From positions 1 through 64,000 of the forward strand of contig NZ_LQAQ01000044.1 of the NCBI RefSeq assembly GCF_001583495.1: a stretch of 64,000 nt of DNA. Reading direction: 5' to 3'. The notes beneath the pieces are model-generated. The model saw nothing but the letters and a program-made list of their open reading frames with translations. It ran no database searches and was not told where the DNA came from. Shown here in pieces: positions 16,095 through 38,616 of this stretch. The first letter of the stretch is position 1. Each line of letters begins with the position of its first letter. The DNA comes from Flammeovirga sp. SJP92 (GTDB lineage: Bacteria > Bacteroidota > Bacteroidia > Cytophagales > Flammeovirgaceae). The position numbers were made by a program, and so were the translations under genes.

Positions 16095-16096
16095 TA

Positions 16097-16702: not shown

Positions 16703-16824
16703 TTTAGATAAGTTGCATGAATACAATATAGACACTGAAAGTTAGTGCAATTATAGATGGAATGAAATACCCACAAGTTGGTATTTTTAATATAAAATTA
16801 GAGTAGGCTTGGTCTTAGATAGAA

Positions 16825-19506
16825 TTATTTTAAGTCTTTGATAAACTTATCGAGGTCCACCTCTTTATCTAATCCCATTTTCTTTCTTAAACGGTACCTG
16901 TTCATGATTACACTTCGGTTGGTAATATTCATGATATTGGCAATTTCATTGTTATTCAAATTAAAACGGATAAGGGCAATTAATCGGTGATCATGTGAAG
17001 TTAGCTGAGGATATTTTTCGTTGAGCAGAACGATAAAATCATGGTGAAGTTCAGAAAATAGTTTATAGAAAATGAAGTTTTTCTTGTCATTGTTCATCTC
17101 ATCATCAATTCTATCTATCCATAGCTTTGCATTTTTATGTTTGATGATGGATAAACCATCACTTAGCTGTCTTAAGAAATCATTTTTTCTTGAAAGTTCT
17201 TCCGCGTACTTTATTAATTGTTCATTTTTTATTTCAAGTGTTTTTTTATCAAGGTCAATTTTTTGCTGTTTTTTCTGTTTTACAGCCGCCTTTTGATTCA
17301 TGATTTTCCAGGCGTTCATAACAATAACATAAAGTAGGAAAAGTGCAAAAATCAGGGGTAAGGTAACCCAGAAAGTTTGATACCACGTTTTTTGTATTTC
17401 AATGGGAAGGGAAGTGACAATAGGTGCGCTATTATTGATTTTAGCTTCCACAACATAATCATAATGACCACCAGAAAGCAAAGTATATTCTCTTTCATTA
17501 GTAATCCCCCAATCCGACCATTGATCATCAAAAGGAATAAGTTTCGTTCTGTATTCTACAATATCATTTTTGTCTTTTGCTACACCAAAAATGAACTTGA
17601 TATTGTTTTCATTTTTTTTCAACTTAATTATTTTGTCAATAAAAGGATACATCAGCTTTTGACTTACATTCATTTTATCTGATACTATCACTTTAGAAAT
17701 GACTGGTTCTGGAAGATCTATTGATCTGTACTTTGAGTTTGGATCAAAAGTTTTGACTCCTCTTTCAGTAGCTATTTGGAGTTCACCTTCATAAAAAGAA
17801 ATAAATTCATGATCCTTCAAAAATTGATTTTGTAGGGATTTAAAAAGGTTGCTGTAATCATAGAAATTTCCGTTTACAATATTGATTCTCATATGCAGTT
17901 TTTCATTACTGATGTATGCATATGTCAATCCTTTATCAATAATTTGTAAAGCAGTCATTTGATGATCTATTAGGTTATTGAATGAAGGTATTTTGATGGC
18001 TTCAAATTGGCCCTGATTGAATGAGGTAACCTTTCCATCTACTAAAAATAATAATTCACCATTGTTTTGAGGAAATATTCTTTGAACAGATGGATGCTGT
18101 AGTACAGAAAATGCATGATTTGAATTGTATTGATATTGATGTAAAATACCATTGTTGGTCTTTGCCCAAATGCATTTATGCTCTTGATCATGATATAATT
18201 TTGGACTGCCGGGGTGTTTCAAGTGTTCTTCAATATTCAGTTTTCCTTTTTGTATTTTAGAAAGATAAAGCCCTGAATAAGTGGACAAAAAGTAATTTGT
18301 TTCTATCATGGAAATATCCATAACACCCACTGCCGTATAGAGCGGTATTAATTGGTTGTTTTTAAGTTGGAAAAGCCCTTTGTCATGACATACATATAAG
18401 ATATTATTGAGTTTTTTAATGTTCCAAACTTGCCCTTGCGAATTGGGGATGATCTGAAACGGTTCATTATTTTTAGATTGATAAAGTCCTTTATTTGTAG
18501 CAAGTAAAATATTATTTCTTGTAACATTAAGGATTTTATAAGTAGCACCACTGTTGAAAATAGTTTTAATTTCTCTTTGTAATTCAATTTTTGATACCCC
18601 ATAATCCAAACCACACCAAATATCTCCATTTTCATCATTGAAGACGGTTAAAATCGTATTGTCTTTCAGTCCATCTTTTGAAGAAATATGTTGTATAATT
18701 TTTTTCTTATTTAATGAATAAATAAACAGCCCTGAAGAAATGGTTCCAATGAGTAAATTTTCACTATTATATGATTTGATACAGAATATTCCTTCTTTGT
18801 AAATTTCCTCAGGAAGGTCAATCACTTTTTGAAAAATACCGCCATTAAAAGAATGAATGGAGCCATTAGTATAGAGTATATAGAGTTCGTTTTTATGAGT
18901 AAAAAGAGTTCTTACTTTTTGGTTTTCAGTTAAAGAATCTACAGCTATAAATTGATTTTCAATGATATGTCCTAGGTGATTCTCATTGTCAGTGGCCCAA
19001 ATGGTATTGTTCCACTTCTTCAAGCTTGAAAAGCCTCCTTTGGTTCTGACTCTGATCTCTTTCTCAGTTTTCTTATCGTAGACAATTACTTGCTCTTCTG
19101 TTCTGAAATAGACCAGTTCCTTTGTGGTTTCAATATTCCAAATCTGACCGCCATTCACAGCACCGCAGCGTTTGTATTTTAAAGTGCCATTGTCGTTTTT
19201 ATAATAATAACCAAACTCAATATTACCTCCAGACCAAATGATGTCATCTTCGACTTTCAATGTGATGATCACATCATTATTTTCAGTTGGAATTAGTTCC
19301 CAGGTGTCATTGATATTGACAAGGAGACCTTGGTTGTTTGCAATGTAGATAATATCATTTTTATCCTTAGCAATATCCCAATTCTGTCTTCCTGCACCAT
19401 AATTGATTCTATCATAGGAGGTAACGGAAGGAATGACGGGTTGACTAAAGCAAAATACGACCTGTAATAAAAAAATTATAGTAATACTAATTTCTTTCAT
19501 AGGCAC
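16825..19506 (-). CDS. Membrane-anchored two-component-type propeller / Y_Y_Y regulator with HTH
   Basis: The 893-residue protein has a signal peptide (residues 1-22) and a long periplasmic region of ~600 residues made of Reg_prop-like propeller repeats (for example NGDIWCGLDYGVSKIE). A Y_Y_Y domain follows at ~625-705 (EYRTKLIPFDDQWSDWG...EYTLLSGGHYDYVVEAK), then one membrane span at ~712-732. The cytoplasm holds a basic coiled coil and a C-terminal LuxR-like helix-turn-helix (~835-885: LIALIRFNLNNNEIANIMNI followed by TNRSVIMNRYRLRKKMG). There is no kinase domain, so this is a one-component transmembrane regulator: ligand sensing outside, DNA binding inside. In Bacteroidota such architectures usually respond to polysaccharides. 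It is followed by the DISM two-component pair in the same orientation. Confidence 0.88.
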   Translation of the reverse strand: MPMKEISITIIFLLQVVFCFSQPVIPSVTSYDRINYGAGRQNWDIAKDKNDIIYIANNQGLLVNINDTWELIPTENNDVIITLKVEDDIIWSGGNIEFGYYYKNDNGTLKYKRCGAVNGGQIWNIETTKELVYFRTEEQVIVYDKKTEKEIRVRTKGGFSSLKKWNNTIWATDNENHLGHIIENQFIAVDSLTENQKVRTLFTHKNELYILYTNGSIHSFNGGIFQKVIDLPEEIYKEGIFCIKSYNSENLLIGTISSGLFIYSLNKKKIIQHISSKDGLKDNTILTVFNDENGDIWCGLDYGVSKIELQREIKTIFNSGATYKILNVTRNNILLATNKGLYQSKNNEPFQIIPNSQGQVWNIKKLNNILYVCHDKGLFQLKNNQLIPLYTAVGVMDISMIETNYFLSTYSGLYLSKIQKGKLNIEEHLKHPGSPKLYHDQEHKCIWAKTNNGILHQYQYNSNHAFSVLQHPSVQRIFPQNNGELLFLVDGKVTSFNQGQFEAIKIPSFNNLIDHQMTALQIIDKGLTYAYISNEKLHMRINIVNGNFYDYSNLFKSLQNQFLKDHEFISFYEGELQIATERGVKTFDPNSKYRSIDLPEPVISKVIVSDKMNVSQKLMYPFIDKIIKLKKNENNIKFIFGVAKDKNDIVEYRTKLIPFDDQWSDWGITNEREYTLLSGGHYDYVVEAKINNSAPIVTSLPIEIQKTWYQTFWVTLPLIFALFLLYVIVMNAWKIMNQKAAVKQKKQQKIDLDKKTLEIKNEQLIKYAEELSRKNDFLRQLSDGLSIIKHKNAKLWIDRIDDEMNNDKKNFIFYKLFSELHHDFIVLLNEKYPQLTSHDHRLIALIRFNLNNNEIANIMNITNRSVIMNRYRLRKKMGLDKEVDLDKFIKDLK

Positions 19507-22433: not shown

Positions 22434-23090
22434 ATGAATATCAAAAAGACCACCATATTATCATTACTATTTATGCTATATTCAATTCAAACTTATGCAC
22501 AGTTTGAAACTAATATAAATTATAAACTACTCGATTCACTTAAGGAATTAAGATATGACGTCGCCTATTCATTAAAAATACAGCAAGAGGATATTTTTGC
22601 CGCAAAAGAAGCATTACATTCTACTCAAAAAAGCTGGCTGGCTTCTTTTACCATTGGCGTAAGTAGTTTTAGATACTCCTCTGATGGTGTTGCAACACAG
22701 ATTTCTGCTTTTTCAGATATAGGAGTGACTCTTTCTTTAGATCTTTTTTCATTTGCATCACTCAACAATAGGATTAGAATTGCTAGGCATGAACTAAGAA
22801 AAAAAGAACTTCAATATTTCAGTCAGCAGAAAGCACTTGAAAGAGAATTAGTAGGCGTTTATTCCACCTATTTACTTGCTGTAGAAAAACTCAAATTGTT
22901 AACGAGCCAAGAGTCCAATCAACTTGAAATATTAAACTTAGTCAAAGAAAAGTTCCTGCGGGGTGAGGCTAAAATTGATGATTATCTCGCCATTGAGGAA
23001 CTCCTAGAGAAAACGCGAATTGCCAAAATAGAAGCAGAAGTCGCTTCTGAAATGGCCTACAAGGAATTACAAATTCTAACCACCGAGTAA
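22434..23090 (+). CDS. Short TolC-like outer-membrane efflux/export protein
   Basis: A signal peptide (residues 1-22, ...QTYAQ) is followed by ~195 residues with TolC-family character: a beta-hairpin-like amphipathic segment (TIGVSSF...SDIGVTLSLDLFSF) and two long helices (LNNRIRIARHELRKKELQYF and LEILNLVKEKFLRGEAKIDD), the latter close to the conserved TolC 'F..G..s..d.l' pattern. At 218 residues it is only half the usual length of 430-500, corresponding to one of the two repeats. The stop is followed directly by the next gene with no remnant of a second half, so it may be a genuine one-repeat form. As first gene of the EPS locus it would take part in polymer passage across the outer membrane. 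Confidence 0.7.
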   Translation: MNIKKTTILSLLFMLYSIQTYAQFETNINYKLLDSLKELRYDVAYSLKIQQEDIFAAKEALHSTQKSWLASFTIGVSSFRYSSDGVATQISAFSDIGVTLSLDLFSFASLNNRIRIARHELRKKELQYFSQQKALERELVGVYSTYLLAVEKLKLLTSQESNQLEILNLVKEKFLRGEAKIDDYLAIEELLEKTRIAKIEAEVASEMAYKELQILTTE

Positions 23091-23105
23091 CCGAGAATAT
23101 ATTAA

Positions 23106-25274
23106 GTGCAAACTATATATTACATATTATTTGAGGTCTTAAAAAGATGGTACTTGTGGACTATTCCTCCGGCAATAGCCGCAGTATTTGTCTATACCAA
23201 AACAGCAGACTTTAAAAGCTTCGAGTCCAAATCCAAACTTCAGTTTGAACTGACCAGTGACGAGAACTTGACTTTAAACAGTAAATCAATCAAACTGTTT
23301 GAGTATGGATTCTTATTTAGTGATGTTATTGAGGTGGCTCGATTACAGCACGTTACACAAAGAATTCAGCTTCGTATTTTAAAAGATGGAGTAGGCAATA
23401 AAAAGTATTTTGATTTTGCTGTAGATGAAAACCTTTATGGTCCGAATGAAATTATTCAGAGAATAGACTATCTCATTGAGAAAAATAAACTATTGGACAT
23501 GCAACGTCCCATTGACGTTGTGATACTTCAATTATTAGAAAAGAATGGAATTACTCCAGATGCTGTTGAATCAAAAATTAAGATTTCAAGAATTGGTTCC
23601 AGTAAATATATGACCATAACAGCTGAAGATAAATTGGCAAAAGTGGCGTATTTCTATGTGAAAATAATGGCAGAAGAATGGACACAAGAATACAAAAATG
23701 AAATAGGTCATCAGCTGACAGGAAAAAGAATGATCATAGAAGAAACGACTAACAAAGCAAAAGAGGAATTAGACTATCTACTTGATTCATTAAGAAACTA
23801 TCAAGAGCATTTTAATGTTTTTAATGTAGAGGCTTCTTCTGATGCAGTCAATGAACGGATATTGGAATTGCAGAAAATGCTAGGGACATTAAATAAAAAT
23901 CATGCTGCAAGACGCCGTGCCATTGATTATATCAAGCATCAGTTGGAAGTGAAAACAGATTATGGATATGCTAATCAAAACCAAAAATTACATGAACAAA
24001 TTGTTCATTTGAAAGATTCACTCCAAGCATTAAAATTAAGTAGAGAATTTGACCAGTTTAAAGCCGATCAGTTGCCTTTTGATTATCAAGCAAATCTTGA
24101 AAATGAAATTTCACACTTAGAAGGCCGCTTGCAAAATTCACTCAATGAATCCATAATCAATACTACTTATGACCCATCAGCAACAAAGCAAAGTATAGTT
24201 TCTGATTTGGTGGTTTTAGAAATAGAATATGAAAAAGAAGAGGCAATGATTCCTGTCGTTGAATCTCAGTTATGGTCTGTAAAAAGTGAAGGGAAAAGAT
24301 TGGTAGGAATTATATCTCATGTAGATAACCTAAAGCACAAAATCAATACTAAAGAAAAGCATTACCTCAAATTATTGGATAAGCTCAATGTTGCTTTAGT
24401 CTTGGAGAAAGATGCCGGAAAAGACCTTTTTGTGATAGAAGAAGCGAATTTTCCATTGAAACCTAAGAGTTCAAAAAGAATGCTTTTGGTGGTTGGTACT
24501 TTTATGGGCGGTTTACTGCTCATTATTGTAGCCATAGTTGCAACAGTAGCATTGGATAAAAATCTCCATAAGACTTTCCAATTTGAACATGAAACTATGA
24601 TTAGTTCTGTTGCCCTCGTTTCAGGCCGAAGGCATAAAGTCAATGCAATTGTTCAGAAAATACCGAAGCTGAATCAATTTGTTCAGAAGAGGTGTCAGAA
24701 AAAGAATAAGAAGTTAGATGCACTTGAGCGTGATGTTATCAAATCAATTAGAAAACAAGTGTTGGAAATTGACACAAAAGAGTCAGGCATTATATTATTC
24801 AACTATGTAAGGAGTAATAAGATGCAATATCATACGGTAAAGAAACTGTATGATTTTTTGCGTGTATTGGAGGTAGAAACTTTGATCCTTTACGCCAATT
24901 GGGATATGCCTGATGTAGATTTTGAAGATGCTCCAATTATTGGAAATAGCTTTGCTGATGTGGAAACAGCCACAGCATCTGGCATGATAGATCTTTCCAA
25001 ATATGCGGCTTCTCCATACGATTATGCATTGCCTAGTAAGTGGTTCAAAATGCTGAAAAGATTAAAAGAGCAATATAAATACATTTTCATTTTACCTCCT
25101 CCAATCTACAGTTCATTAGAGTGGAAAGAATGGATGGACCTGTCCTCAGATTTATACTATATGTATGAACTGCATTATCCATTTAATGAAGATGATGCTA
25201 AAAATCAACATGAGATGTATGAGTCCCATCTCAACATTTTAGGTACTATAATTACTGAAGATAATGAATATTAA
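23106..25274 (+). CDS. Wzz/GumC-type polysaccharide co-polymerase with degenerate BY-kinase domain
   Basis: Starts at GTG 23106; no ATG precedes. Two membrane segments flank the periplasmic part: WYLWTIPPAIAAVFVYT near residue 15 and KRMLLVVGTFMGGLLLIIVA near 460, with long coiled coils between, as in Wzz/Wzc/GumC co-polymerases that control polymer length. The cytoplasmic ~220 residues have the order of a BY-kinase/MinD-like domain, but the Walker A is missing: about residue 559 reads FNYVRSNKMQYHTV where GxxGxGKT should be. The Walker B/A' position (~657) reads YIFILPPPIYS without the aspartate. It is probably a pseudokinase used for structure. The next gene overlaps its end by 11 bp. Confidence 0.82.
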   Translation: MQTIYYILFEVLKRWYLWTIPPAIAAVFVYTKTADFKSFESKSKLQFELTSDENLTLNSKSIKLFEYGFLFSDVIEVARLQHVTQRIQLRILKDGVGNKKYFDFAVDENLYGPNEIIQRIDYLIEKNKLLDMQRPIDVVILQLLEKNGITPDAVESKIKISRIGSSKYMTITAEDKLAKVAYFYVKIMAEEWTQEYKNEIGHQLTGKRMIIEETTNKAKEELDYLLDSLRNYQEHFNVFNVEASSDAVNERILELQKMLGTLNKNHAARRRAIDYIKHQLEVKTDYGYANQNQKLHEQIVHLKDSLQALKLSREFDQFKADQLPFDYQANLENEISHLEGRLQNSLNESIINTTYDPSATKQSIVSDLVVLEIEYEKEEAMIPVVESQLWSVKSEGKRLVGIISHVDNLKHKINTKEKHYLKLLDKLNVALVLEKDAGKDLFVIEEANFPLKPKSSKRMLLVVGTFMGGLLLIIVAIVATVALDKNLHKTFQFEHETMISSVALVSGRRHKVNAIVQKIPKLNQFVQKRCQKKNKKLDALERDVIKSIRKQVLEIDTKESGIILFNYVRSNKMQYHTVKKLYDFLRVLEVETLILYANWDMPDVDFEDAPIIGNSFADVETATASGMIDLSKYAASPYDYALPSKWFKMLKRLKEQYKYIFILPPPIYSSLEWKEWMDLSSDLYYMYELHYPFNEDDAKNQHEMYESHLNILGTIITEDNEY

Positions 25275-26487
25275 TTACCCTGATTTAGCCCTTTATGGTT
25301 TTCAAATAATAAGTTTTTACTTTTTATGCTATAGTTTTTATTGGATGATGACACTTTTCATCGGCTCATTTTATAAAGAACCTGAAGCCCAGTCTTTCCC
25401 AATGAAAGATAGGTGGTTGGTGGTTTTGCCCGCATATGCTCCAAATTCCACATTTTTTGAAGTATTGAAAAGCATACGTGATAATCAGCCTCCGAATGCA
25501 GTGGAGATGAAAACGTATGTTTTATTTCAAAATACCAATGCCAAATTCATTGATCAATGCTACCAGAAAATGGACTTTTTGTGCAATCATAAAAGCTTTC
25601 ACAATCAAAAAGGGAACTCCTATGTACATGCATTGAAATTTATCTGTCATCAAATTACTTCAGATAATCAATTGAAAATGTTTGACCCAACTCATATTAT
25701 TTTGTTGGATAAAGATAATATTATAGCTCCTGATTTCTTCTATAAATTATATGCTTTAAGGGGTAATGAATATGATTTGATTCAAGGCAAAAGGCTGCCC
25801 TTATCACATGTGAATGGTGTGACTTCTTATGACCAAATCTCAGAATCATTGAATGATATGATGATGCGACAATACAGAGTGAAAATGGGTTGGTTGCCCG
25901 AATTAAGTGGTAGTGGTTTTTTAGTTGATAAAAGACTTTTCATAAAAGGCATCAATAAATTAGATGAGAACAACCCAGGTATGGATAAGAACCTTTTAAT
26001 CAATTGGTTGTTGAATTTTAATGATATCAAGGCTTGCTTCTCTAATTCTACTATAGTTTATGAAGAAAAAACAGATGATATAGAAGTTTTAGGAGCACAG
26101 AGAACACGATGGTTTGCAGAACAATATCAGACTTTAGCCACTTATTTTAGTCAACTTGTATTAAAAAGTATTTCATCATTGAGGTTGGAATTATTGGACT
26201 ATGTCTTTGCTTTATCTCGCCCGCCAAGAAGCATACATTTATTGATTGTTCCAACATTACTGATCATTGAATTAGCTGCTTTCAAAATTTCAATCTTGAA
26301 TCTTTTATCCTTTTTATTTCTATCCTTTGGTATTATCCTGTTCTTAACCAATCAGAGATTATGGAGAGCTGCATTTCAAGTACTAAAAATGTTTCCTTCT
26401 TTGATCATAAGTAACATCAGAAGTATACTTAAAATAGGGGGACAGACAAAAGGCAATTTTATTCATACTGAAAGAAAAGATAAATAG
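25264..26487 (+). CDS. GT2-type membrane glycosyltransferase
   Basis: The 407-residue protein overlaps the preceding gene by 11 bp. One N-terminal membrane segment (residues ~10-35) precedes a GT-A domain: WLVVLPAYAPNSTFFEVLKS, LLDKDNIIAPDF (DxD-like), SGSGFLVDKR and a Q-RTRW motif (GAQRTRWFAEQ) typical of processive GT2 enzymes. Two or three hydrophobic segments follow at ~320-375. It would transfer sugars onto a lipid-linked acceptor at the inner membrane for the EPS repeat unit. Sugar specificity is not predictable. Confidence 0.86.
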   Translation: MNINYPDLALYGFQIISFYFLCYSFYWMMTLFIGSFYKEPEAQSFPMKDRWLVVLPAYAPNSTFFEVLKSIRDNQPPNAVEMKTYVLFQNTNAKFIDQCYQKMDFLCNHKSFHNQKGNSYVHALKFICHQITSDNQLKMFDPTHIILLDKDNIIAPDFFYKLYALRGNEYDLIQGKRLPLSHVNGVTSYDQISESLNDMMMRQYRVKMGWLPELSGSGFLVDKRLFIKGINKLDENNPGMDKNLLINWLLNFNDIKACFSNSTIVYEEKTDDIEVLGAQRTRWFAEQYQTLATYFSQLVLKSISSLRLELLDYVFALSRPPRSIHLLIVPTLLIIELAAFKISILNLLSFLFLSFGIILFLTNQRLWRAAFQVLKMFPSLIISNIRSILKIGGQTKGNFIHTERKDK

Positions 26488-26498
26488 ATAGAACAGTG

Positions 26499-28052
26499 AT
26501 GCGCGTAGCCAAAAAAGTAATTAAAAAGATGATAGGAGAGCGGTATAACACCAATTTTGGTGTTTTCTGCTTGATCTCTTTTGCATTAACTGTAGGCGTA
26601 TTGGTAATGAAAACCAATTGGGCTACAGCGATTGCACTTGCTTTTGTATGTGTGGCTATGCCTATATTTTTCTCCCTCTTTGTAAAACTTGAATTTGCTA
26701 TCTATTTCTTTCTTACACTTTCTATTTTCATTGGAGTACCTCTCAAAATCCCGACTTCAATCCCAATAGGTATTTCGTTTGATAGTTCCATTTTATTTAC
26801 ATTTTTTGGGCACGTTTTCAGGTGTTACGAAAAGAAAGATTACAAATCTACTTTTAAGTTCTTTCCCGTTTATTTTGTATATGCATGGATGGGATATAAT
26901 TTTTTACAAGTAGGAAACCCATGGGCTGCGTCAAGAGCAGCTTGGTTTTATACCATGCGACCTTATGTGTTTTATCCTCTGATTTTTGTTCTTACTTATT
27001 ATCAGTTCCGTACAAAGGAACAGATTTTAAAAGTATTACATTTTTTCTTAGTAATCACAACAATTTGTGCAGCTTGGGGCTGTTATCAATTTTTATTTGG
27101 GTACTTGAATTTTGAAATGATGTGGGTGTTGGCTAATGATGCCAAACATTTGGTATATATTAACGGACGCTGGAGATCTTTTGGAACAACAGGTTCACCT
27201 GCTCACTTTGGTGTACTAATGGGATTAATGTTTAATTTCTATGCAATTCTAATTCCTGTTTACAAGAAACTTTCTCAGAAAATATTTATGATGATAGCAT
27301 TGTTAATTATTTTCTTAGGGTTGGTTTGGTCAGGTACAAGATCAGGTTTTGCAATTGTACCCATTGGTTTTATAATCATAATTGGACTTTGGGGGAACAC
27401 TAAAATTTATATCGTGGGAGCAATATTAGTTGCAATAATGACTTTTGTGATTGTGACACCCTCTAATAATTATCATATACAAAGAATTCAATCTACTTTT
27501 AATGCAAGTGAAGATGAATCGTATAAAGAAAGAAAAAGAAATCAGGAAAGAATAAAACCATGGTTGGCGAAACACCCTATTGGTGGTGGTTTGGGGAGCA
27601 CAGGGATTTGGGGTATGAAATTTTCTCCTGGTACAATGCTCTCAGGTTTTGCTCCTGATTCAGGTCACGTTCGTGTGATGGTTGAGACAGGCTATGTCGG
27701 ATTGGTTGTTTATCTCTCATTTTATGCTGCTTTGTTACTTCCCGCATTTTTCAAAGTCAAAGTATGGAGTTTACAGGACCAAGATTACAAACTTTTAATA
27801 CTCACCTTCTTTTCATTTTATGGTGCTTTTATGGTTGTAGAACAAGCACAGGATATTAATGGGATTTTACCTTTCAGTGTTGGCTTATGGTTCTTCTCCG
27901 CCATATTCTGCCGTCTTATTAAATTAGCCTTGGAAGATGAATTAAGAAGATGGGTCGAGTTGAATGATCAACGTAAAATTGAATTTGAAGAAAGAGAAAA
28001 AAGAAAATTTGCAAAGCGACAAAAATACCTTAAAAAATTATTTGATGAGTAA
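26499..28052 (+). CDS. Wzy-like O-antigen polymerase/ligase family membrane protein
   Basis: An ATG at 26499 is preferred over the GTG one codon earlier. The ~517-residue protein has roughly ten membrane segments and one large external loop with the O-antigen ligase/polymerase pattern WSGTRSGFAIVPIGF before it and HPIGGGLGSTGIWG...GHVRVMVETGYVGLVVY within it. Wzy enzymes polymerise lipid-linked repeat units at the periplasmic side. It follows the GT2 gene by 11 bp. No separate WaaL ligase is seen, so this is most likely the EPS polymerase; its C-terminus is a charged cytoplasmic tail (EEREKRKFAKRQK). Confidence 0.85.
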   Translation: MRVAKKVIKKMIGERYNTNFGVFCLISFALTVGVLVMKTNWATAIALAFVCVAMPIFFSLFVKLEFAIYFFLTLSIFIGVPLKIPTSIPIGISFDSSILFTFFGHVFRCYEKKDYKSTFKFFPVYFVYAWMGYNFLQVGNPWAASRAAWFYTMRPYVFYPLIFVLTYYQFRTKEQILKVLHFFLVITTICAAWGCYQFLFGYLNFEMMWVLANDAKHLVYINGRWRSFGTTGSPAHFGVLMGLMFNFYAILIPVYKKLSQKIFMMIALLIIFLGLVWSGTRSGFAIVPIGFIIIIGLWGNTKIYIVGAILVAIMTFVIVTPSNNYHIQRIQSTFNASEDESYKERKRNQERIKPWLAKHPIGGGLGSTGIWGMKFSPGTMLSGFAPDSGHVRVMVETGYVGLVVYLSFYAALLLPAFFKVKVWSLQDQDYKLLILTFFSFYGAFMVVEQAQDINGILPFSVGLWFFSAIFCRLIKLALEDELRRWVELNDQRKIEFEEREKRKFAKRQKYLKKLFDE

Positions 28053-28164: not shown

Positions 28165-28172
28165 TATTTTTG
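28165..28172 (+). promoter_or_regulatory. Bacteroidota -7 element ahead of the receiver/sugar-transferase gene
   Basis: TATTTTTG matches the TAnnTTTG consensus exactly, 70 bases before the ATG at 28242. The nearest upstream TTTG (28135-28138) is 26 bases away, slightly longer than usual. It suggests that the fusion gene has its own promoter separate from the wzz-wzy transcript. Confidence 0.4.
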
Positions 28173-28241
28173 AATAAAAAGCATTATTGAATCATTCATC
28201 AATATTCATTGTTATTTGATAAACAATTATTACACACTACA

Positions 28242-29399
28242 ATGAGAAAAGTACTATATCTAGAAGACGATCGATTTATGTTTGAATTTGTGGAACATGT
28301 TCTAAAACATAAGTACGAAATAATTGAAGCAAGAAGTGTAGAACAGGCTCAGGAAATCTTATCTAAATTATCTATTTCTTTGTTACTATCAGACTTACAT
28401 ATTCATGATGAAAGCATGATAGATTTTTTAGGGGAACTGAAGAAAAATGACGCCTATAAAAATCTGCCGATAGTTGTATTAACTTCTGAAATTGATGTCA
28501 ACTGTAAAATGGAACTCCTGAAATCAGGAGTAAGTGAGTACATTACCAAACCTTTTGTACCTGAAAACCTTGATATCATCATTCAAAATGTGATCTATCA
28601 GTTTGAAGTTTTGGAGGACTATGAAATGGTAGAGTTTCCAGCTCAGAAATTAATTAAACGTAAGAAGAATCTTTATGTAATGTTTAATGATTTCACCAAG
28701 AGAATTTTTGATATTGTGGTCTCCTCAACATTGATTATTTTACTTTCACCATTGCTAATAGTAATAGCTGTTGCTATTCGAATGGAGTCTAAAGGAAAGG
28801 TAATTTACTCAGCCAAAAGAGTAGGAAGATATTACGCCATTTTTCCATTCTATAAGTTCAGGTCTATGCGAGTAGACGCAGATAGTATGGTGAGTTCTTT
28901 ACAAAAAGACAATGCCTACAATAATGAAGAAGAAGAATCAGGAAAAGGAATAAATTTGGATAAAGATCCACATATGCTTTATAGTGATAACGGATATCAA
29001 GTTTCTTATAAAGATTACATCAAAGAGAAAAATAAATCTTCATTCTTTAAATTAAAAAATGACCCTAGAGTCACAAAAGTTGGAGCACTCATTCGTAAGA
29101 CAAGTCTTGATGAATTGCCACAGCTTTTTAATGTACTTTTTGGGCATATGTCAATTGTTGGGAATAGACCTTTACCAATATATGAGGCAGAGCAAATGAC
29201 CAAAGATAAATCCATCTTAAGATTTTCAGCTCCAGCAGGTATTACAGGTTTATGGCAAGTAGAAAAATCAAAAAGAGCATTTATGTCCATCGATGAAAGA
29301 ATAGAATTGGATACAAAATATGCTAGAAAGTATAATATCTTTTACGATATAGGATTGATGTTGAAAACAATTCCAGCTATGATCCAAAAAGAAGAATAA
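28242..29399 (+). CDS. Response-regulator receiver / polyprenyl-phosphate sugar transferase fusion
   Basis: The ATG at 28242 is used (a TTG at 28209 is in frame), giving 385 residues. Residues 1-125 are a CheY-like receiver with the full active site: Glu8/Asp9/Asp10, phosphoacceptor Asp51 ([10 protein letters not shown]), Thr81 and Lys103 (YITKPF). A single membrane segment follows (~155-180: [20 protein letters not shown]), then a bacterial sugar transferase domain ([52 protein letters not shown]). This WcaJ/WbaP-type enzyme moves a sugar-1-phosphate to undecaprenyl phosphate and starts the EPS repeat. The usual N-terminal membrane region is replaced by the receiver, implying phosphorelay control of initiation. 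The enzymatic half carries a ~45-residue acidic insertion between FRSM and KNDPR. Confidence 0.92.
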
Positions 29400-29528: not shown

Positions 29529-30611
29529 ATGAATATTCAATTTCTTTCATGTTTAGAAGGAAAGTTTGGTATTGGTCAATATTCAGAAAGATTAGCCCAA
29601 GGAATGTACCGAAATGGTTTAGAGATATTGCTCTCTAGAAAAAAGGGAACTGAATTTCCGTTTACTAACCATTACCATCATCGCTCGTTAAAAAACCTAA
29701 GAAACTATATAGCACCCTTTTATATGTCTAGAGAATTAAATCAACAACATAGGGAGTATTCAATTTATCATGCGGATAACATTGATGCCTTCACAGGGTT
29801 CTATTGGTCTAACAAAAATAAAACAGGAAAAAATATTGTCACCATTCACGATGTAATTCCACTTCATTTTAAAAATACAAATCCACTCATTCATCAATAT
29901 TATCTCTACCAGTTAAATACTTCAATCAAGCAATCCGACTTGATTATTACTGTTTCGGAGACTTCTAAAATTGATTTAGTTAACATGACAAATGTGTCTC
30001 CTGATAAAGTGAAAGTGGTTTATAATGGAATTGATCATTCAACATTTTATTGGGATAAAAATTTCAAAACCCAAAACGAAAAATTCACAATAAGATATTT
30101 GGGAGGATTGGGTGTTGTACATAAAAATGCAGTGGCCTTAATAGAAGTAGCTAGAATTTTGGAAGAGAAAGGGTTGGATTTTAGTATGGAAATTGGAAGT
30201 GGCAATGCGGCTTATACCAATCTTCCTGAATTAGTTGAGAAATATCAGCTCCAAAATGTTTCTTTTGTTGGTTATGTAGATGATAAAGATTTACAGCAAT
30301 TTTTACAGACTGCAGATGCATTTTTATACCCTTCAAAATTTGAGGGCTTTGGTTTTCCTCCACTAGAGGCAATGGCATGCGGTACAGCAACAGTATCTTC
30401 GAATGAAGGTTCTTTGGGTGAAGTTCTAAAAAATGGTGCTTTACTTTCCACTTCTGCACCAGAAGAGTTGGCCGAAAATATCATTAAATTGATGGAAGAT
30501 GAAAACCTCAAAAAGGAATACGAATTGAAGGGCATTGAAACGGCCAAAAAGTACACATGGGAGAAAGCGACGAAAGATCTTGAAAGTATTTATGAAAACC
30601 TAATGTTATGA
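29529..30611 (+). CDS. GT4-family glycosyltransferase
   Basis: The 360-residue GT-B enzyme shows the GT4 donor-binding pattern: VTIHDVIPLHF, VVYNGIDHSTF, LYPSKFEGFGFPPLEAMACG (the E-x7-E motif) and NEGSLGEVL. It uses a nucleotide sugar in the cytoplasm to extend the lipid-linked repeat. Its N-terminus (FGIGQYSERLAQGMYRNG) resembles that of the locus' last glycosyltransferase (at 41709), so the two are paralogs. Its stop overlaps the next start (ATGA type overlap of four bases), indicating translational coupling. Confidence 0.9.
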   Translation: MNIQFLSCLEGKFGIGQYSERLAQGMYRNGLEILLSRKKGTEFPFTNHYHHRSLKNLRNYIAPFYMSRELNQQHREYSIYHADNIDAFTGFYWSNKNKTGKNIVTIHDVIPLHFKNTNPLIHQYYLYQLNTSIKQSDLIITVSETSKIDLVNMTNVSPDKVKVVYNGIDHSTFYWDKNFKTQNEKFTIRYLGGLGVVHKNAVALIEVARILEEKGLDFSMEIGSGNAAYTNLPELVEKYQLQNVSFVGYVDDKDLQQFLQTADAFLYPSKFEGFGFPPLEAMACGTATVSSNEGSLGEVLKNGALLSTSAPEELAENIIKLMEDENLKKEYELKGIETAKKYTWEKATKDLESIYENLML

Positions 30612-31498
30612 AAATAAGTATTATAGTACCTACTCACAATAGAATGTCTTCTATGCTAACATTGGCTGAAGCATTAAATAATCTCGATTACCCTGATTAT
30701 GAGGTGATAGTTGTTTGTGATTCCTGTAAAGACGATACTAAAAAAGAATTAGAAGCAAAATATGGCCAACAAGAGAATTGGCAAATATTAGAAGTTGAAA
30801 AAGCAGGTCCTGCAAAAGCAAGAAATACAGGAGCAAGATTAGCAGTAGGAGAAATTTTAGCGTTTACGGATGATGATTGTATTCCTGACAATAATTGGCT
30901 ACAAGTGATTCGTTTAAACTTGGAAGGCAATCCCAATATTGTAGGCTTAGAAGGTCTTACTTATACTTATAAAAAAGAAGTAACACCACTTACTCATCAA
31001 ATTGAAAATTTGGATGGCAATCCAGCAGTTCCTACTTGTAATGTAGCATTTAGGAAAAGTACCTTTGAGCATTTGAATGGTTTCGATGAAACTTTTCCTT
31101 ATGCTCACAATGAGGATGCAGACTTTGCCTGGAGAATGAGAGAAGTAGGAGAGATTGTTTTTGTAGAAGAGATGAAAGTCTGTCATCCGCCTCGTCAAGA
31201 ATCATTTTCTAAAATGAAATCAAGAATGAAGATTTTAGAAAGTGAATTTTTACTTTATTATAAAAACACCAACCTATATCACAAATACAGAAATACATCA
31301 CCATGGATTACGATCTACTGGGAAGTATTTTTCTATCATCAAATAATGAATCTGAAAAGTACATTCAAATACTTCTTCAAACCGAAGCTATTTTTAGGGG
31401 GATTAAAATTAATTTTCTATTGGTGGATTGATTTAATTCTTCTATTTCCAAAATATTTTGCTTCAAACTTTAAATACCAAAAACAGTTTCAATCATAA
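30608..31498 (+). CDS. GT2-family glycosyltransferase
   Basis: The 296-residue enzyme has a GT-A fold: ISIIVPTHNRMSSMLTLAEA, a VVCDSCKDDT donor loop, AKARNTGARLAVGEILAF and the TDDDCIPD DxD motif, then NVAFRKS and ETFPYAHNEDADFAWRMRE (ED acid motif). The C-terminal ~70 residues are hydrophobic and basic, suggesting membrane association. It adds one sugar of the EPS repeat. It overlaps the preceding gene by four bases and is followed after three bases by the next. Confidence 0.9.
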   Translation: MKISIIVPTHNRMSSMLTLAEALNNLDYPDYEVIVVCDSCKDDTKKELEAKYGQQENWQILEVEKAGPAKARNTGARLAVGEILAFTDDDCIPDNNWLQVIRLNLEGNPNIVGLEGLTYTYKKEVTPLTHQIENLDGNPAVPTCNVAFRKSTFEHLNGFDETFPYAHNEDADFAWRMREVGEIVFVEEMKVCHPPRQESFSKMKSRMKILESEFLLYYKNTNLYHKYRNTSPWITIYWEVFFYHQIMNLKSTFKYFFKPKLFLGGLKLIFYWWIDLILLFPKYFASNFKYQKQFQS

Positions 31499-31501
31499 AC
31501 T

Positions 31502-32707
31502 ATGCATATTTTTAGACCCATTGTATTACAAGCACTAACAAGAGTTGATGAACAGTTTGGTGCTACATCTATCTCTTTAGCTAAAAAGTGGTCTAGAGAT
31601 AGATTGGTTTTTTATGTTGATCATCCATATACATTAAAAGACCTTACAAATCCGGCTTTCGCGGAGCAAATCAAGAAAAGAAAAGAACTTTGGAAAAAGG
31701 GAATTCATCACTTTCAGCCATTTGATGATTATCCAAATTTCATCAATATTTGCCCCGAACCTGTATTTCCAATCAATTTCCTTCCTCCGGGATTAATATA
31801 CAATCAATTGAAAGCAAAAAATTGTAAGTCAATTTGGAAAGCGATTGATTCGGTATTGGATCGTTTCCATGTTAAAGATAACTTCGTATATATCAATTCG
31901 TTTAATCCTGTATATTTTTCTATTTCTTCTAAGAAAAAGTCAATAATGTCAATTTATCATTGTGTGGATTTGATAGAAGGGGAAAAGTATATTGCAAAAC
32001 ATGGAATTACTGCTGAGAAAAAAGCAGCGGAGAAGGCCGATTTAGTAATTACAACTTCAGATGACCTGAGGTATAGATTGGAACCTTACGCTAGACAAAT
32101 TGAGACGGTTTATAATGGTGCGGATTACGACTTTTTCCAAAGAGAAAATTATTTTGAATCGCATTTATTAAAGAGTATTCCTAAAGGAAAAAGAGTGACT
32201 TACGTAGGGAATATTGGCTTGAGAATTAATTATAAATTATTAGAAAGCATTGTAAAAAGCGACCCTGAATTACAATTAATTTTAATAGGACCAATTAATC
32301 AGCGAGAATTCAGAGGTGAGAAATTATTGGAATATAGTAATGTACATTATTTAGGGCCTCAGAAAATGGAAGATGTTCCAGATCTTGTCTATTATTCAGA
32401 TGTTTGTATTATTCCATTCCTTTGCAATGACCTTACACAATGTATTTATCCTTTGAAAATTAATGAATATTTGAGTGTGGGTAAACCTGTACTTACAACT
32501 CCTTTTACAAACTTAGAAGATTTTGAGGAAGTGATTCATATTTATGATGATGCACCATCTTTTGAGGTGGAATTAAAGAAAGCACTTAAAGACTCCAAAG
32601 AAAAAGTAGCGAGAAGAAAGGAAATTGCCAAGAATAATAAGTGGGAAAACAGGGCAAGTCAATTTCATAACATTTACCTTGATAAAATAAATAGAAATGC
32701 TCAGTAG
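31502..32707 (+). CDS. Glycosyltransferase, GT4-like (TuaH-type)
   Basis: The 401-residue protein resembles TuaH-like GT-B enzymes: N-terminal LVFYVDHPYTLKDL, middle IYHCVDLIEGEKY and EKADLVITTSDDLRYRL, then ETVYNGADYDFF, VTYVGNIGLRINYKLLESI and a C-terminal YSDVCIIPFLCNDLTQCIYP followed by PLKINEYLSVGKPVL, the donor-binding region. It likely adds a further sugar to the repeat unit. The acyltransferase gene overlaps its end by 11 bp. Sugar not predictable. Confidence 0.85.
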   Translation: MHIFRPIVLQALTRVDEQFGATSISLAKKWSRDRLVFYVDHPYTLKDLTNPAFAEQIKKRKELWKKGIHHFQPFDDYPNFINICPEPVFPINFLPPGLIYNQLKAKNCKSIWKAIDSVLDRFHVKDNFVYINSFNPVYFSISSKKKSIMSIYHCVDLIEGEKYIAKHGITAEKKAAEKADLVITTSDDLRYRLEPYARQIETVYNGADYDFFQRENYFESHLLKSIPKGKRVTYVGNIGLRINYKLLESIVKSDPELQLILIGPINQREFRGEKLLEYSNVHYLGPQKMEDVPDLVYYSDVCIIPFLCNDLTQCIYPLKINEYLSVGKPVLTTPFTNLEDFEEVIHIYDDAPSFEVELKKALKDSKEKVARRKEIAKNNKWENRASQFHNIYLDKINRNAQ

Positions 32708-33320
32708 CTTAAAACTATATGTTCAGAATAATGACTGGTTGAAACAGTTTATTCACCAATCCCTTGTACTTTATTACAGACCAAGGTTTTGGGTACGAGT
32801 ACTTTTATTTCCTTTTTATATCAAGAGGGGTAGAAAAGCTGTGATCAGATCTTCTGCTCGCCTGGACTTATTTCCGTTTAATAAAGTTACTATTGGGAAA
32901 AAGACAATCATTGAGGATTTTGTGACTCTAAATAATGCCGTAGGGGATTTAGTCATTGGAAATAATGTGATTGTCGGAATGGGCAATACTATTATTGGAC
33001 CTGTAGAAATAAAGGATAATGTACTATTTGCTCAAAATATTGTGGCTTCTGCTTTAAACCATGTTTTCGAAGATCCCGATGTGCCAATTGTGGATCAAGG
33101 TGTCAATACAAAAAAAATAACAATAGACGAAAATTCATGGATAGGTGCTAATGTGACCATCACACAAGGTGTACATATTGGAAAACACTGTGTGATTGGA
33201 GCAGGAAGTGTAGTAAACAAAGATATTCCTGACTATCATGTGGCTATTGGAAACCCTATCCGATTAGTCAAAAGATATAATTTCGAAACCAAAAACTGGG
33301 AAAAAATACCTAAACAATAA
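32697..33320 (+). CDS. Hexapeptide-repeat (LbH) O-acyltransferase
   Basis: The 207-residue protein has a left-handed beta-helix built of hexapeptide repeats (VTIGKKTIIEDFVTLNNA, LVIGNNVIVGMGNTIIG, NVLFAQNIVASALNHVFED, SWIGANVTITQGVHIGKH, CVIGAGSVVNKDIPDYHVAI). The His in LNHVFED is placed as the catalytic base of NeuD/WcaF-type acetyltransferases. It would acetylate a sugar of the EPS. Start overlaps the preceding gene by 11 bp; the next gene follows after five bases. Confidence 0.9.
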   Translation: MLSSLKLYVQNNDWLKQFIHQSLVLYYRPRFWVRVLLFPFYIKRGRKAVIRSSARLDLFPFNKVTIGKKTIIEDFVTLNNAVGDLVIGNNVIVGMGNTIIGPVEIKDNVLFAQNIVASALNHVFEDPDVPIVDQGVNTKKITIDENSWIGANVTITQGVHIGKHCVIGAGSVVNKDIPDYHVAIGNPIRLVKRYNFETKNWEKIPKQ

Positions 33321-33325
33321 TTATT

Positions 33326-34234
33326 ATGCTCTCGATTATCACCGTAAACTTTAGACAATTAGACGTTACGCTAGAACTAATTAAATCCTTAATACAATTT
33401 GCACCTAAAGAGTCAGAATGGATTGTTGTGGACAATGGATCACAAAAAGATATTTCAGCACTTTTAGAACGAATGGATTCAAGAGTTAAAGTCATAACCT
33501 CAGAAGAGAATCTTGGTTTTGCAGGTGGAAATAATCTTGGAATAAATGAAGCTAAAGGAGATTTTCTATACTTTATCAATAACGATACTATAGTGACAAA
33601 AAGTTCATTTCAACCTTTATTAGATTCAATGCAAGATGAAAAGGTAGGTATGGTTTGTCCCAAAATTCAATATTATTATACTCCCAATACCATTCAATAT
33701 TCAGGTTTTACGGAGATCAATCCATTTACGGGAAGGAACAGAGTGATCGGAGAAAGAGAGCAGGATAAAGGACAATATGATAATGTAAAGAAAACTTACT
33801 TTGGACATGGAGCCGCCATGATGGTAAGAAGGAAAGTGATTGATGAGGTTGGCGGTATTCCTGAAACGTTCTTTTTGTATTATGAAGAAATGGATTGGTG
33901 CAAGAAGATACGGAAAGCAGGATACCAGATTCAATACAATGGCAAAGCAATGATTTTACACAAAGAATCTATTACAGTAGGAAAATTAAGTCCATTGAAA
34001 GAGTTTTATATGACGCGGAATAGGATTTTATTTATGTATAGAAATTACTCAATTATTTATTTTATCGGGTTCTTTTTATTCTTCATGATGTTATCATTTC
34101 CGAAACGATATTTCTTCTTACTCAACAAAGATAAAAAGCTAAATAGTGCATTGAAGGCCGGTCTCTTCTCTGCACTATTGTATCTTTTCAATAAAAGCAT
34201 GGCACAACCCAAAGATGGGCTCAAATACGCTTAG
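33326..34234 (+). CDS. GT2 glycosyltransferase (rhamnosyltransferase-like)
   Basis: The 302-residue GT-A enzyme has IITVNFRQLDVTLELIKSL, WIVVDNGSQKD, ENLGFAGGNNLGINEAKGDF, the DxD-like NNDT in YFINNDTIV, GHGAAMMVRRKVIDEVGG and EEMDWCKKIRKAGY, which is the WbbL/RfbF layout often found in rhamnosyltransferases. One hydrophobic C-terminal segment (YFIGFFLFFMMLSF) probably anchors it to the membrane. Part of the EPS operon; sugar specificity is not certain. Confidence 0.9.
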   Translation: MLSIITVNFRQLDVTLELIKSLIQFAPKESEWIVVDNGSQKDISALLERMDSRVKVITSEENLGFAGGNNLGINEAKGDFLYFINNDTIVTKSSFQPLLDSMQDEKVGMVCPKIQYYYTPNTIQYSGFTEINPFTGRNRVIGEREQDKGQYDNVKKTYFGHGAAMMVRRKVIDEVGGIPETFFLYYEEMDWCKKIRKAGYQIQYNGKAMILHKESITVGKLSPLKEFYMTRNRILFMYRNYSIIYFIGFFLFFMMLSFPKRYFFLLNKDKKLNSALKAGLFSALLYLFNKSMAQPKDGLKYA

Positions 34235-35472: not shown

Positions 35473-38400
35473 ATGTATACTACCACCCAAAAATATCGAC
35501 TTCTTTTTATACCATTTCTGACATTGTTGCTCGCAATGATCCCATTAAAAACGCAATATGATTATTTGACACTTGGATCATGGGATGCAAATGGTGTACC
35601 TTCATATTTAGATGGACGAATTGCTGTTCCAACTGATGTTGTGGATAGAACCAGAGCTTTAATTGAAGATTCATTGAGAATCTTTGGCAATGCATTTTTG
35701 GATAGAAATGCTACTGATGTTTATCTGAAACAAGAAGGAGAGGTCTTTGTGACTCTACTTTATGAAGATGCAGGGTGGAAAAATACATTAGGCTTTTATA
35801 CTTATACAATTGATGATATACCACAGAGTTCTGGTGAAATAGGAGACCTCACAATCATCTTTCCAAATATCGACAGTCCTGATATTGTAGATAATGGAAT
35901 GCGGATTAGTTTGGGTACTTATCCCGAAAACACTGTGTTTGGTTTTTTCTTGGTGGCCCAAGGATGGAATGGTGGAATTACTGATGGTGATTATATGTTG
36001 TTTACCAATGGTGATTTCAATTCCTCATTTACCGCAGGTACACTTTATAATCAGATGACTATTATTTTTGCAAATGATCTAACAGACGCTACAGAATTTG
36101 ATTTCCTTCTATGTATGGAAGACAATGTGGATCTTTCTGCCGGTGATTACGATTATAATGATGCTGTATTTAAATTAGAGTCCACTCCTGATGTAGCATT
36201 GGATCAATTTAGGGCGGAGGCCTTGATTCCGCCAGTAGCAGAAGATACATTGATTACCGTTTTTCAATATGATACAGTCACATTTTCAATTGACAGCTTA
36301 CTTCAAGATCATAATTATATTGATTATTCATCTTTGGAAATACTTACACCTGTTGACCCAGATGACCTTTCACTGATCTCATTTAGCGGTACAGATCTCA
36401 CTGTTGGAATGACTGACGGAGTGTTCGACACTTTAGCGTTGGATTATAGAATCTGCAATGAAAGTTTTACTAACCTTTGTGATACAGGTGTCATCTATAT
36501 AGCGTTAGGTAGTATAAACCAACCTCCAGTAGCGTTAAAAGATTCATTGATTAGATATGATGTTTCACTTACAAATACTGGTCTTCCATTAAGTGTTTTA
36601 GGGGCTGATCCAGATGATAATTTAAATACAGATCACCTGAGAGTCATTTCATCACCTAATGATATTTTCTTTACAATTTCGGATGATGGACATATTAAGA
36701 TTGTACCTCAATTAGATGCAAGTGGTATTGATACTGCCTTCTTTGAAATTTGTGATTTAGGTACTCCTATATATTGCGACACAGGTTATTTCTTAGTGAA
36801 TTTTCCAGTATTGCCGGTCGCTGTGGATGATGCCGTTAACTTGCCTGATGGTCATGAAATCAGTATTGATGTATTAGCTAATGATACGCACCCTGATGAT
36901 GATTTAGATTCTACTACTTTAAGAATAATTGAAGAACCCGATATAGAAGGTGTTGAGTTTGAAGTAGTAGATGGGGAAATCGTACACACACCACCAGAAG
37001 ATTTTGTGGGCTCGTATGATCTTACATATGAAGTTTGCGATAAATCAACACCACCAGATTGTGATCAAGCAGTTTTGACTATTACCGTTTTTGATGATGA
37101 TCCAGTGGCAGTCAATGATACATTAAGTTTACCTGATGGTGACCCTGTAAATATAAATATACTCGCCAATGATACGCATCCTCAAGATGATCTAAATCCT
37201 GCATCATTAAAAATTATTGAAACGCCAGATATAGACGGAGTGACTTTTGAAGTCGTCAATGGAGAACTAGTGCATACCCCACCAGAAGGTTTTGAGGGTA
37301 CCTATGAATTGACTTACGAAATTTGCGACAATTCTTCTCCAGCAGATTGTGATCAAGCTGTAGTTGTTATCACAGTGTTTGATGATGATCTTTTGGCTGT
37401 TAATGATACATTGGATCTTCCTGATGGAGAGTTAGCTATAATCGATGTACTTTCTAATGATTTTCATCCCGAAGATGATCTTGATCCCGAGTCTTTAAGA
37501 ATTATTGAAGAGCCGGATATCGATGGTGTTGAATTTGACGTTGTGGATGGAGAAATAGTACATACACCACCGGAAGGATTTGAAGGAACTTATGAGTTAA
37601 CTTATGAAGTTTGTGATAATGCAACTCCGGTAGATTGTGATCAAGCTGTTGTTGTCATTACAGTAGTTGATAATGATCCTACACCAAGGACAAACCTACC
37701 ACCTGTTGCAAAAGATGATTTTGCAATCACTGATGTTGACGTTTCAGTAGAGTTGCCAATTCTTGATAATGACTACGATACTGACGGTCATCTAGATTAT
37801 TTTACTGTCGCTCTGATAACATCTCCTCTCAATGGATCAGTCTTGTTCGATGGTGAAATTACAGACGGAGATACATCAGTTGTAGCTCATTATTTCCCGA
37901 ACAAAGGTTATTCAGGAGTAGATATTTTCACTTATGAAGTCTATGATAATGGAAGTCCTAGAAAGAAAGATGAAGCCATCGGGATTATTCTGATAGGCGA
38001 TGATGGTTATGTATCTGAAAACTCATCATTGTATTGGATTGATTCAGTGAAAATATTTGAAGGAGAAACTTATAATCTGCCATTAGAAGAAAAGGTAAAT
38101 AAAGTCACTGACATAGACCTATCTTCTCCAACCACTTCTTTATACGGTTCTCCAGATTTAGAAAATGCAGATGCTGAAGCTGTTGATTCTTTAAATATTC
38201 TTTATACAGCACCAGATTCAGTTGCATCAGATGGAGAAAGAGATTACGTTTATTACAGTGTTTGTAATGATGATGAAGAGTGTGGTTATGGCTTGTTGAT
38301 TGTAGATATTTATCAAGAGGGAACAGTAATAGAAGAGGAAATTGATATAACAGTTTACAATGGATTTTCTCCAAACGACGACCTAATCAATGATTTCTTT

Positions 38401-38616
38401 GTTGTAGAAAATATTGAAAGATATAAAGACAATCAATTGAAAATCTATAATAGATGGGGACAAGAAATCTATCAAAAAGAGGGGTACGCCAACGAATGGA
38501 ACGGTAACAATAATAATGGAGAACCACTCCCTGATGGTACTTACTTCTATGTAATCCTTATTGAATTAAATAACAAAACCAATACATTTAACGGGTATGT
38601 GGTACTGAAGCGATAA
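35473..38616 (+). CDS. Giant T9SS cargo adhesin with cadherin-like repeats and CHU_C-type sorting domain
   Basis: The 1047-residue protein begins with a signal peptide (LLFIPFLTLLLAMI, near residue 10). Residues ~115-235 match DUF4114 (VFGFFLVAQGWNGG...GDYDYNDAVF). Residues 449-736 are three tandem ~96-residue cadherin/Ig-like repeats, each starting with VAVND/VAVDD...LPDG and containing ...HTPPEGFEGTYELTYE. A further related domain lies at ~745-840. The C-terminal ~85 residues are a gliding-motility-associated (CHU_C, type B) sorting domain (YNGFSPNDDLINDFFVVE, KIYNRWGQEIYQ, PLPDGTYFYVI), so the protein is exported by the T9SS and kept at the surface. Asp-rich loops suggest calcium binding. 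It lies between glycosyltransferase genes, directly followed by PorP/SprF. Confidence 0.93.
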   Translation: MYTTTQKYRLLFIPFLTLLLAMIPLKTQYDYLTLGSWDANGVPSYLDGRIAVPTDVVDRTRALIEDSLRIFGNAFLDRNATDVYLKQEGEVFVTLLYEDAGWKNTLGFYTYTIDDIPQSSGEIGDLTIIFPNIDSPDIVDNGMRISLGTYPENTVFGFFLVAQGWNGGITDGDYMLFTNGDFNSSFTAGTLYNQMTIIFANDLTDATEFDFLLCMEDNVDLSAGDYDYNDAVFKLESTPDVALDQFRAEALIPPVAEDTLITVFQYDTVTFSIDSLLQDHNYIDYSSLEILTPVDPDDLSLISFSGTDLTVGMTDGVFDTLALDYRICNESFTNLCDTGVIYIALGSINQPPVALKDSLIRYDVSLTNTGLPLSVLGADPDDNLNTDHLRVISSPNDIFFTISDDGHIKIVPQLDASGIDTAFFEICDLGTPIYCDTGYFLVNFPVLPVAVDDAVNLPDGHEISIDVLANDTHPDDDLDSTTLRIIEEPDIEGVEFEVVDGEIVHTPPEDFVGSYDLTYEVCDKSTPPDCDQAVLTITVFDDDPVAVNDTLSLPDGDPVNINILANDTHPQDDLNPASLKIIETPDIDGVTFEVVNGELVHTPPEGFEGTYELTYEICDNSSPADCDQAVVVITVFDDDLLAVNDTLDLPDGELAIIDVLSNDFHPEDDLDPESLRIIEEPDIDGVEFDVVDGEIVHTPPEGFEGTYELTYEVCDNATPVDCDQAVVVITVVDNDPTPRTNLPPVAKDDFAITDVDVSVELPILDNDYDTDGHLDYFTVALITSPLNGSVLFDGEITDGDTSVVAHYFPNKGYSGVDIFTYEVYDNGSPRKKDEAIGIILIGDDGYVSENSSLYWIDSVKIFEGETYNLPLEEKVNKVTDIDLSSPTTSLYGSPDLENADAEAVDSLNILYTAPDSVASDGERDYVYYSVCNDDEECGYGLLIVDIYQEGTVIEEEIDITVYNGFSPNDDLINDFFVVENIERYKDNQLKIYNRWGQEIYQKEGYANEWNGNNNNGEPLPDGTYFYVILIELNNKTNTFNGYVVLKR
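36817..37680 (+). repeat. Three tandem 288-bp repeats in the adhesin gene
   Basis: Equivalent codons (V-A-V-D/N-D) start at 36817, 37105 and 37393, an exact period of 288 bp (96 codons). The copies are well conserved at protein level (REx or KxIxEEPDI-GV-FEVV, HTPPE, LTYEVCD, CDQAV) and clearly diverged at DNA level, so they are old duplications. Homologous copies could still allow repeat-number change. Confidence 0.9.

Follow-up and report, generated by a model that had tools for sequence, protein, structure and literature searches.

A receiver domain joined to an initiating sugar-phosphate transferase in Flammeovirga, and its split counterparts across the Bacteroidota

The REC-PGT gene and its domains

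The stretch of DNA analyzed here (the window; 64,000 nucleotides from the marine bacterium Flammeovirga sp. SJP92) carries a cluster of EPS genes on a single strand, in which genes for an OEP-type protein, a 722-residue protein, a GT2 enzyme, and a Wzy/ligase-like protein are followed by a gene that joins a receiver domain (REC) to an initiating sugar-phosphate transferase (PGT), and this in turn by glycosyltransferases and a hexapeptide transferase. The relevant features are:

22434..28052, forward strand: upstream EPS genes (OEP-type outer-membrane protein, 722-aa protein, GT2, Wzy/ligase-like), by Pfam
28165..28172, forward strand: TATTTTTG, proposed -7 element, at chance frequency
28242..29399, forward strand: REC-PGT fusion gene, 385 aa, an intact ORF with orthologs 90-91% identical
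28251..28577, forward strand: receiver domain (REC), aa 4-112; Pfam PF00072 Response_reg, 54 bits, well over its cut-off
28578..28697, forward strand: REC-PGT linker, aa 113-152, variable (70-77% identity over aa 121-150) and, by hydropathy, without a transmembrane bundle
28698..29384, forward strand: monotopic PGT catalytic domain, aa 153-381; Pfam PF02397 Bac_transf, 195 bits against a cut-off of 27
28905..29039, forward strand: PGT subfamily insert, about aa 222-266, seen in alignments and as a gap between two HMMER stretches
29529..34234, forward strand: downstream glycosyltransferases and hexapeptide acyltransferase, by Pfam

The fusion gene begins with an ATG at 28242 and is read through 385 uninterrupted codons to a stop at 29399, with an in-frame TTG farther upstream at 28209. 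Its receiver has the complete active-site set of a response regulator, consisting of the acidic pair D9 and D10, the phospho-acceptor aspartate D51 (codon 28392-28394), T81, and K103, exactly where a sequence-only reading of this DNA had placed them, and all five residues are invariant across the four Flammeovirga orthologs. Compared with the monoPGT motif set out in PMC12802240, with the domain aligned to WbaP structures by HMMER, the transferase signature is also complete: a DX12P re-entrant helix (D157-P170), K205, R285, the Asp-Glu catalytic dyad D290-E291 (29109-29114), and D369 accompany the Bac_transf domain, so that the protein belongs to the monotopic PGT superfamily (PF02397). With both Pfam domains and the catalytic residues present, the covalent union of a CheY-like receiver with an intact initiating transferase, as that reading had proposed, is confirmed.

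The receiver is somewhat divergent, scoring 54 bits against 83 for that of a paralog in the same genome, which counts against reading it as a phosphorylation switch; eight residues past D51 it has Met where the paralog has Gly. Mean hydropathy over 19 residues reaches a maximum of 1.06 among segments starting before residue 130, compared with 2.69 in the re-entrant helix, and the N-terminal 145 residues are not hydrophobic. Structure prediction of the fusion from a four-sequence alignment gave a mean pLDDT of 38.9, too low to be relied on. The subfamily insert, of about 45 residues, precedes a KL-NDPR segment here and in relatives (L158, L172, L081, L054, and L053, for example), many of which carry in it a CxxC...C...C pattern that resembles a metal site and is lost in Flammeovirga.

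Genomic surroundings

The EPS export genes at 22434-25274 comprise a short OEP/TolC-type protein and its 722-residue neighbor, which has no Pfam match and is PCP-like (in the co-polymerase place) by position alone; the window genes scanned included no Wza-type protein. In other Flammeovirga (L042-L044) the genes ahead of REC-PGT line up in the same way, as judged by the order and sizes of the ORFs. The gene had also been tentatively credited with its own -7 promoter element, a claim discarded here: TANNTTTG has 97 matches in the window where 97.4 are expected, which makes the one at 28165-28172 uninformative. Next to the EPS cluster, on the reverse strand at 14331-19506, a HisKA_3 kinase and a response regulator of the LuxR type, a pair about 12 kb upstream of REC-PGT, are accompanied by a Y_Y_Y protein that matches GerE weakly; the set is a candidate for transcriptional control. 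Proteins with DUF4114 and/or DUF4842 recur near PGT loci (window 35473-38616, L047 600-2588, and L039 7536-9605), the one in the window having cadherin-like repeats and a type IX secretion signal.

Conservation of the fusion

The full-length fusion is found in three other Flammeovirga assemblies at 90-91% identity, a second REC-PGT copy of 46% identity lies elsewhere in the same genome, and each of five further Flammeovirga genomes has one copy; all are clean ORFs, and at least one REC-PGT is present in all nine Flammeovirga genomes searched. REC and PGT genes adjoin in relatives, sometimes overlapping by a few bases, but a frameshift or misassembly merging two such neighbors, named in the sequence-only reading as what would undo it, has a negligible chance of accounting for a gene whose full-length orthologs in three independent assemblies, together with the paralog and further copies in the genus, rule it out. 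Among the Flammeovirga orthologs identity is 93-94% in the receiver, 91% in the PGT domain, and 70-77% in the linker, and dS is at or close to saturation. The receiver is as constrained as the enzyme, and purifying selection on both domains is strong.

The second copy is situated beside two divergent single-domain RECs, and a 7TMR-DISM/SpoIIE protein is encoded a few genes on. In the receiver tree these two RECs (L039 11488-11970 and 12064-12555; G000:C46) fall together with the fused ones, as if they were detached copies of the receiver.

A distinct subfamily of transferases

An alignment of the fused proteins was used as the query to search 395 genomes across the phylum, 390 of the order, and 395 of the class; neighborhoods of up to 20 kb were examined around representative matches, and 62 Bacteroidota loci were classified. 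The fused proteins prove to be one arrangement within a larger PGT subfamily, which separates with 100/100 support from 20 large PGTs taken from the same or related genomes. The sequence-only reading had seen a WcaJ/WbaP-type enzyme with its membrane region exchanged for a receiver; this is not the best description, as the catalytic domain belongs to a separate clade, the protein has no PF13727 match, and its N terminus lacks the hydrophobic character of that region. Among NCBIfam models the window PGT falls under the cut-off of every PGT family listed, the best being TIGR03025 (245.8 against 295.55).

In the sampled genomes, intact fusions are confined to the Cytophagales, where they occur in three genera of the window's own family and two of another. 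No match at E<=1e-40 was obtained in 249 genomes of Bacillota, a search with no positive control in that phylum, and a tblastn search of plasmids returned one record with at least 80% query coverage, from Parabacteroides distasonis, aligned from residue 71 onward. At L175 (9754-12630; G011:C33) a 958-aa ORF with a long N-terminal extension has a weak REC match and a PGT at its C terminus.

Fused and split receivers

The N termini of the 62 loci fall into three states: 12 have an intact REC, 42 a domain without an intact site (pseudo-receiver), and 8 no N-terminal domain. A stand-alone REC gene lies directly upstream on the same strand in none of the 12 loci with an intact fused receiver, whereas it does so in 47 of the 50 others. 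The latter count comes from a stop-to-stop rescan without ORF-overlap filtering; with the filter it is 45 of 50, two RECs lying under longer antisense ORFs, and for this filtered count Fisher's test gives p=2.9e-9, a value that is only a guide because the loci are not phylogenetically independent. Control neighborhoods had no stand-alone REC upstream of the transferase at any of 20 large or 17 small PGT loci (0/37). The usual partner of the PGT clade of the window protein is a stand-alone REC, and the pairing of a dedicated canonical receiver with an initiating PGT, as in the EpsW/EpsZ system of Myxococcus, recurs at nearly all of these loci, either fused or adjacent.

D9, D51, and K103 are all present in 42 of the 45 partner RECs that were scored, those of L046, L106, and L108 lacking the complete set; a full active site is found in none of the 42 pseudo-receivers. 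Comparison of the pseudo-receiver profile with that of the partner RECs (99.3% probability, E 8e-21) identifies the degenerate N-terminal domain as a receiver fold. On the PGT tree the intact-fused state requires four changes, at least two of which are forced by strongly supported branches. The 12 fused RECs fall in one group of the receiver tree (SH-aLRT 98), which also takes in the partners of the bare PGTs L047 and L049 and six single Flammeovirga RECs. As the fused RECs are nested among the partner RECs, one and the same receiver is fused to the PGT at some loci and encoded by a gene of its own at others.

Phosphorelay genes near the transferases

HK-REC-Hpt hybrid kinases occur in 16 of the 62 neighborhoods and in none of the 20 around large PGTs (p=0.009). 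At L105 and L107 such a kinase, a REC, and the PGT are consecutive on one strand with short gaps (by Pfam for L107), and at L045 a 120-aa Hpt gene directly precedes a fused REC-PGT. NtrC-type regulators are found near several PGT loci. The 1547-aa hybrid kinase directly upstream of the REC/PGT pair at L096 (3925-8568) has HNOBA, multiple PAS domains, and a C-terminal Hpt, a composition suggesting that polymer initiation may respond to redox state or to a gas. In the window itself neither an Hpt nor a hybrid kinase was found and no kinase or Hpt gene adjoins REC-PGT, which counts against a phosphorylation switch there; the two orthodox histidine kinases of the window are about 15 and 28 kb away. 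Five Hpt domains occur elsewhere in the genome, three of them in small proteins.

A proposed mechanism and its alternatives

Taken with the analogy to EpsW/EpsZ, the sequence features indicate, with fair confidence, a response regulator that has the first enzyme of an EPS pathway as its output and in which the attached PGT is switched when D51 becomes phosphorylated. The phosphate would reach D51 from a kinase or an Hpt protein, and the switched α4-β5-α5 face of the receiver would then alter the activity of the attached monotopic PGT at the membrane. The effect would probably be activation, probably by stabilization of an active or dimeric PGT arrangement, as has been proposed for EpsW~P and EpsZ; the EpsZ dimer model may not transfer, because the window PGT has neither the transmembrane bundle nor the DUF. 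In most Bacteroidota the same control would be exerted in trans, by a stand-alone receiver acting on a PGT with a pseudo-receiver or no N-terminal domain, while Flammeovirga and a few other Cytophagales would hold the partner receiver in cis. Post-translational control by the receiver, as put forward in the sequence-only reading, thus gains comparative support from the fused or adjacent linkage of REC and PGT and from the phosphorelay kinases nearby, although its mechanism is put forward here as a model.

The sign of the effect could be the reverse. Unphosphorylated REC domains inhibit their fused effectors in other response regulators, CheB among them, and the sequence does not fix the sign, so that the receiver might repress the PGT, with phosphorylation relieving or imposing the inhibition. 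Such repression would still be phospho-control, differing from the preferred explanation in sign only, and is judged unlikely, as in the sole tested REC/monoPGT pair the phosphorylated receiver activates (PMC12802240).

A mainly structural receiver is improbable. In such a scheme the REC or pseudo-REC would replace the Rossmann-like DUF of large PGTs, serving as a constitutive dimer element or scaffold for which phosphorylation is irrelevant. Large PGTs do have an α/β DUF at the same position (PMC12802240, PMC10942596), and the most common fused form is the pseudo-receiver without acceptor residues, from which it is clear that an unphosphorylated REC fold is useful there. Nevertheless, a stand-alone REC that is nearly always canonical sits beside almost every pseudo-receiver or bare PGT, the cis receiver has a complete active site solely at loci that lack such a partner, and the eight PGTs without any N-terminal REC fold still have a partner.

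Control of location rather than of catalysis, with the REC recruiting the PGT to a kinase or chemosensory cluster or acting as a phosphate sink or timer, would be compatible with the phosphorelay genes nearby, the spare single-domain RECs beside the Flammeovirga paralog, and the several Hpt proteins. This too is quite improbable, since the one-to-one pairing of REC with a catalytic PGT, absent at other PGT loci, argues for direct control.

On balance, the loci probably represent a Bacteroidota-wide signaling module, undescribed in the papers searched, whose phosphorelay (often HK-REC-Hpt) has the polysaccharide-initiating PGT itself as its end point. An active receiver would act in trans on a PGT that is bare or bears a pseudo-receiver; in some Cytophagales it would have come to act in cis, probably at least twice, with loss of the separate partner gene. 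The presence of the switch as a separate gene beside the enzyme in many relatives suggests a widespread, direct on/off control of slime production.

To our knowledge, few response regulators have enzymatic outputs beyond cyclic-di-GMP, methylesterase, and phosphatase chemistry. How commitment of undecaprenyl phosphate is controlled is an open question in polysaccharide biology, and EpsW/EpsZ is the sole REC-to-PGT switch found to have been tested in the literature searched. The complementarity of fused and split forms provides independent comparative support for REC-to-PGT control in another phylum and points to residues and partner genes to mutate, and a single-polypeptide REC-PGT is convenient for in vitro work.

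Comparison with known systems

The closest tested analogue of a phosphorylated receiver gating polymer initiation is EpsW/EpsZ of Myxococcus xanthus, in which a single-domain response regulator activates a large monoPGT (Schwabe et al. 2025, PMC12802240); stimulation of EpsZ by EpsW~P is supported by proximity labeling and heterologous complementation (PMC12802240). In both systems the PGT that initiates an EPS pathway has a phosphorylatable REC of its own, with control that is post-translational in Myxococcus and would be so here, and in most Bacteroidota loci, as in Myxococcus, receiver and enzyme are two separate proteins. The differences are substantial. EpsZ, a large monoPGT that lacks the DUF β-hairpin and for which a REC-promoted dimer has been proposed, has a transmembrane bundle and a PF13727-type DUF, whereas the window PGT has neither; the window REC is in cis, and the PGTs of its Bacteroidota relatives may bear a pseudo-receiver; and EpsW takes its input from the Dif chemosensory kinase, whereas the neighbors here, where any are found, are HK-REC-Hpt hybrids or Hpt proteins. 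The large monoPGTs WbaP and WcaJ (PF13727 plus PF02397) share the catalytic fold and residues of the window PGT, which differs in its separate clade and in having no transmembrane bundle.

According to PMC12802240, O'Toole et al. (2021, PNAS) had already noted small monoPGTs that bear REC domains. These fusions, compared here through that passage of PMC12802240, which gives no function for them, resemble the window protein in having a REC on a monoPGT core, and together with the activation of EpsZ by EpsW~P they overturn the notion of an unprecedented fusion. The sequence-only reading had named a widespread, already characterized family as one thing that would undo it, and this holds by half: the family is widespread, mainly in split form, but no characterization in Bacteroidota was found in the library searched. 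The literature on REC/sugar-transferase architectures or Bacteroidota pairs yielded only the Myxococcus work, and no description of the Bacteroidota REC/PGT pair, the pseudo-receiver, or the cis/trans complementarity was found in the open-access literature searched. The joining of a REC to a monoPGT is already known, and it is the pattern of fused and split receivers across the family that is of greater interest than any single fusion.
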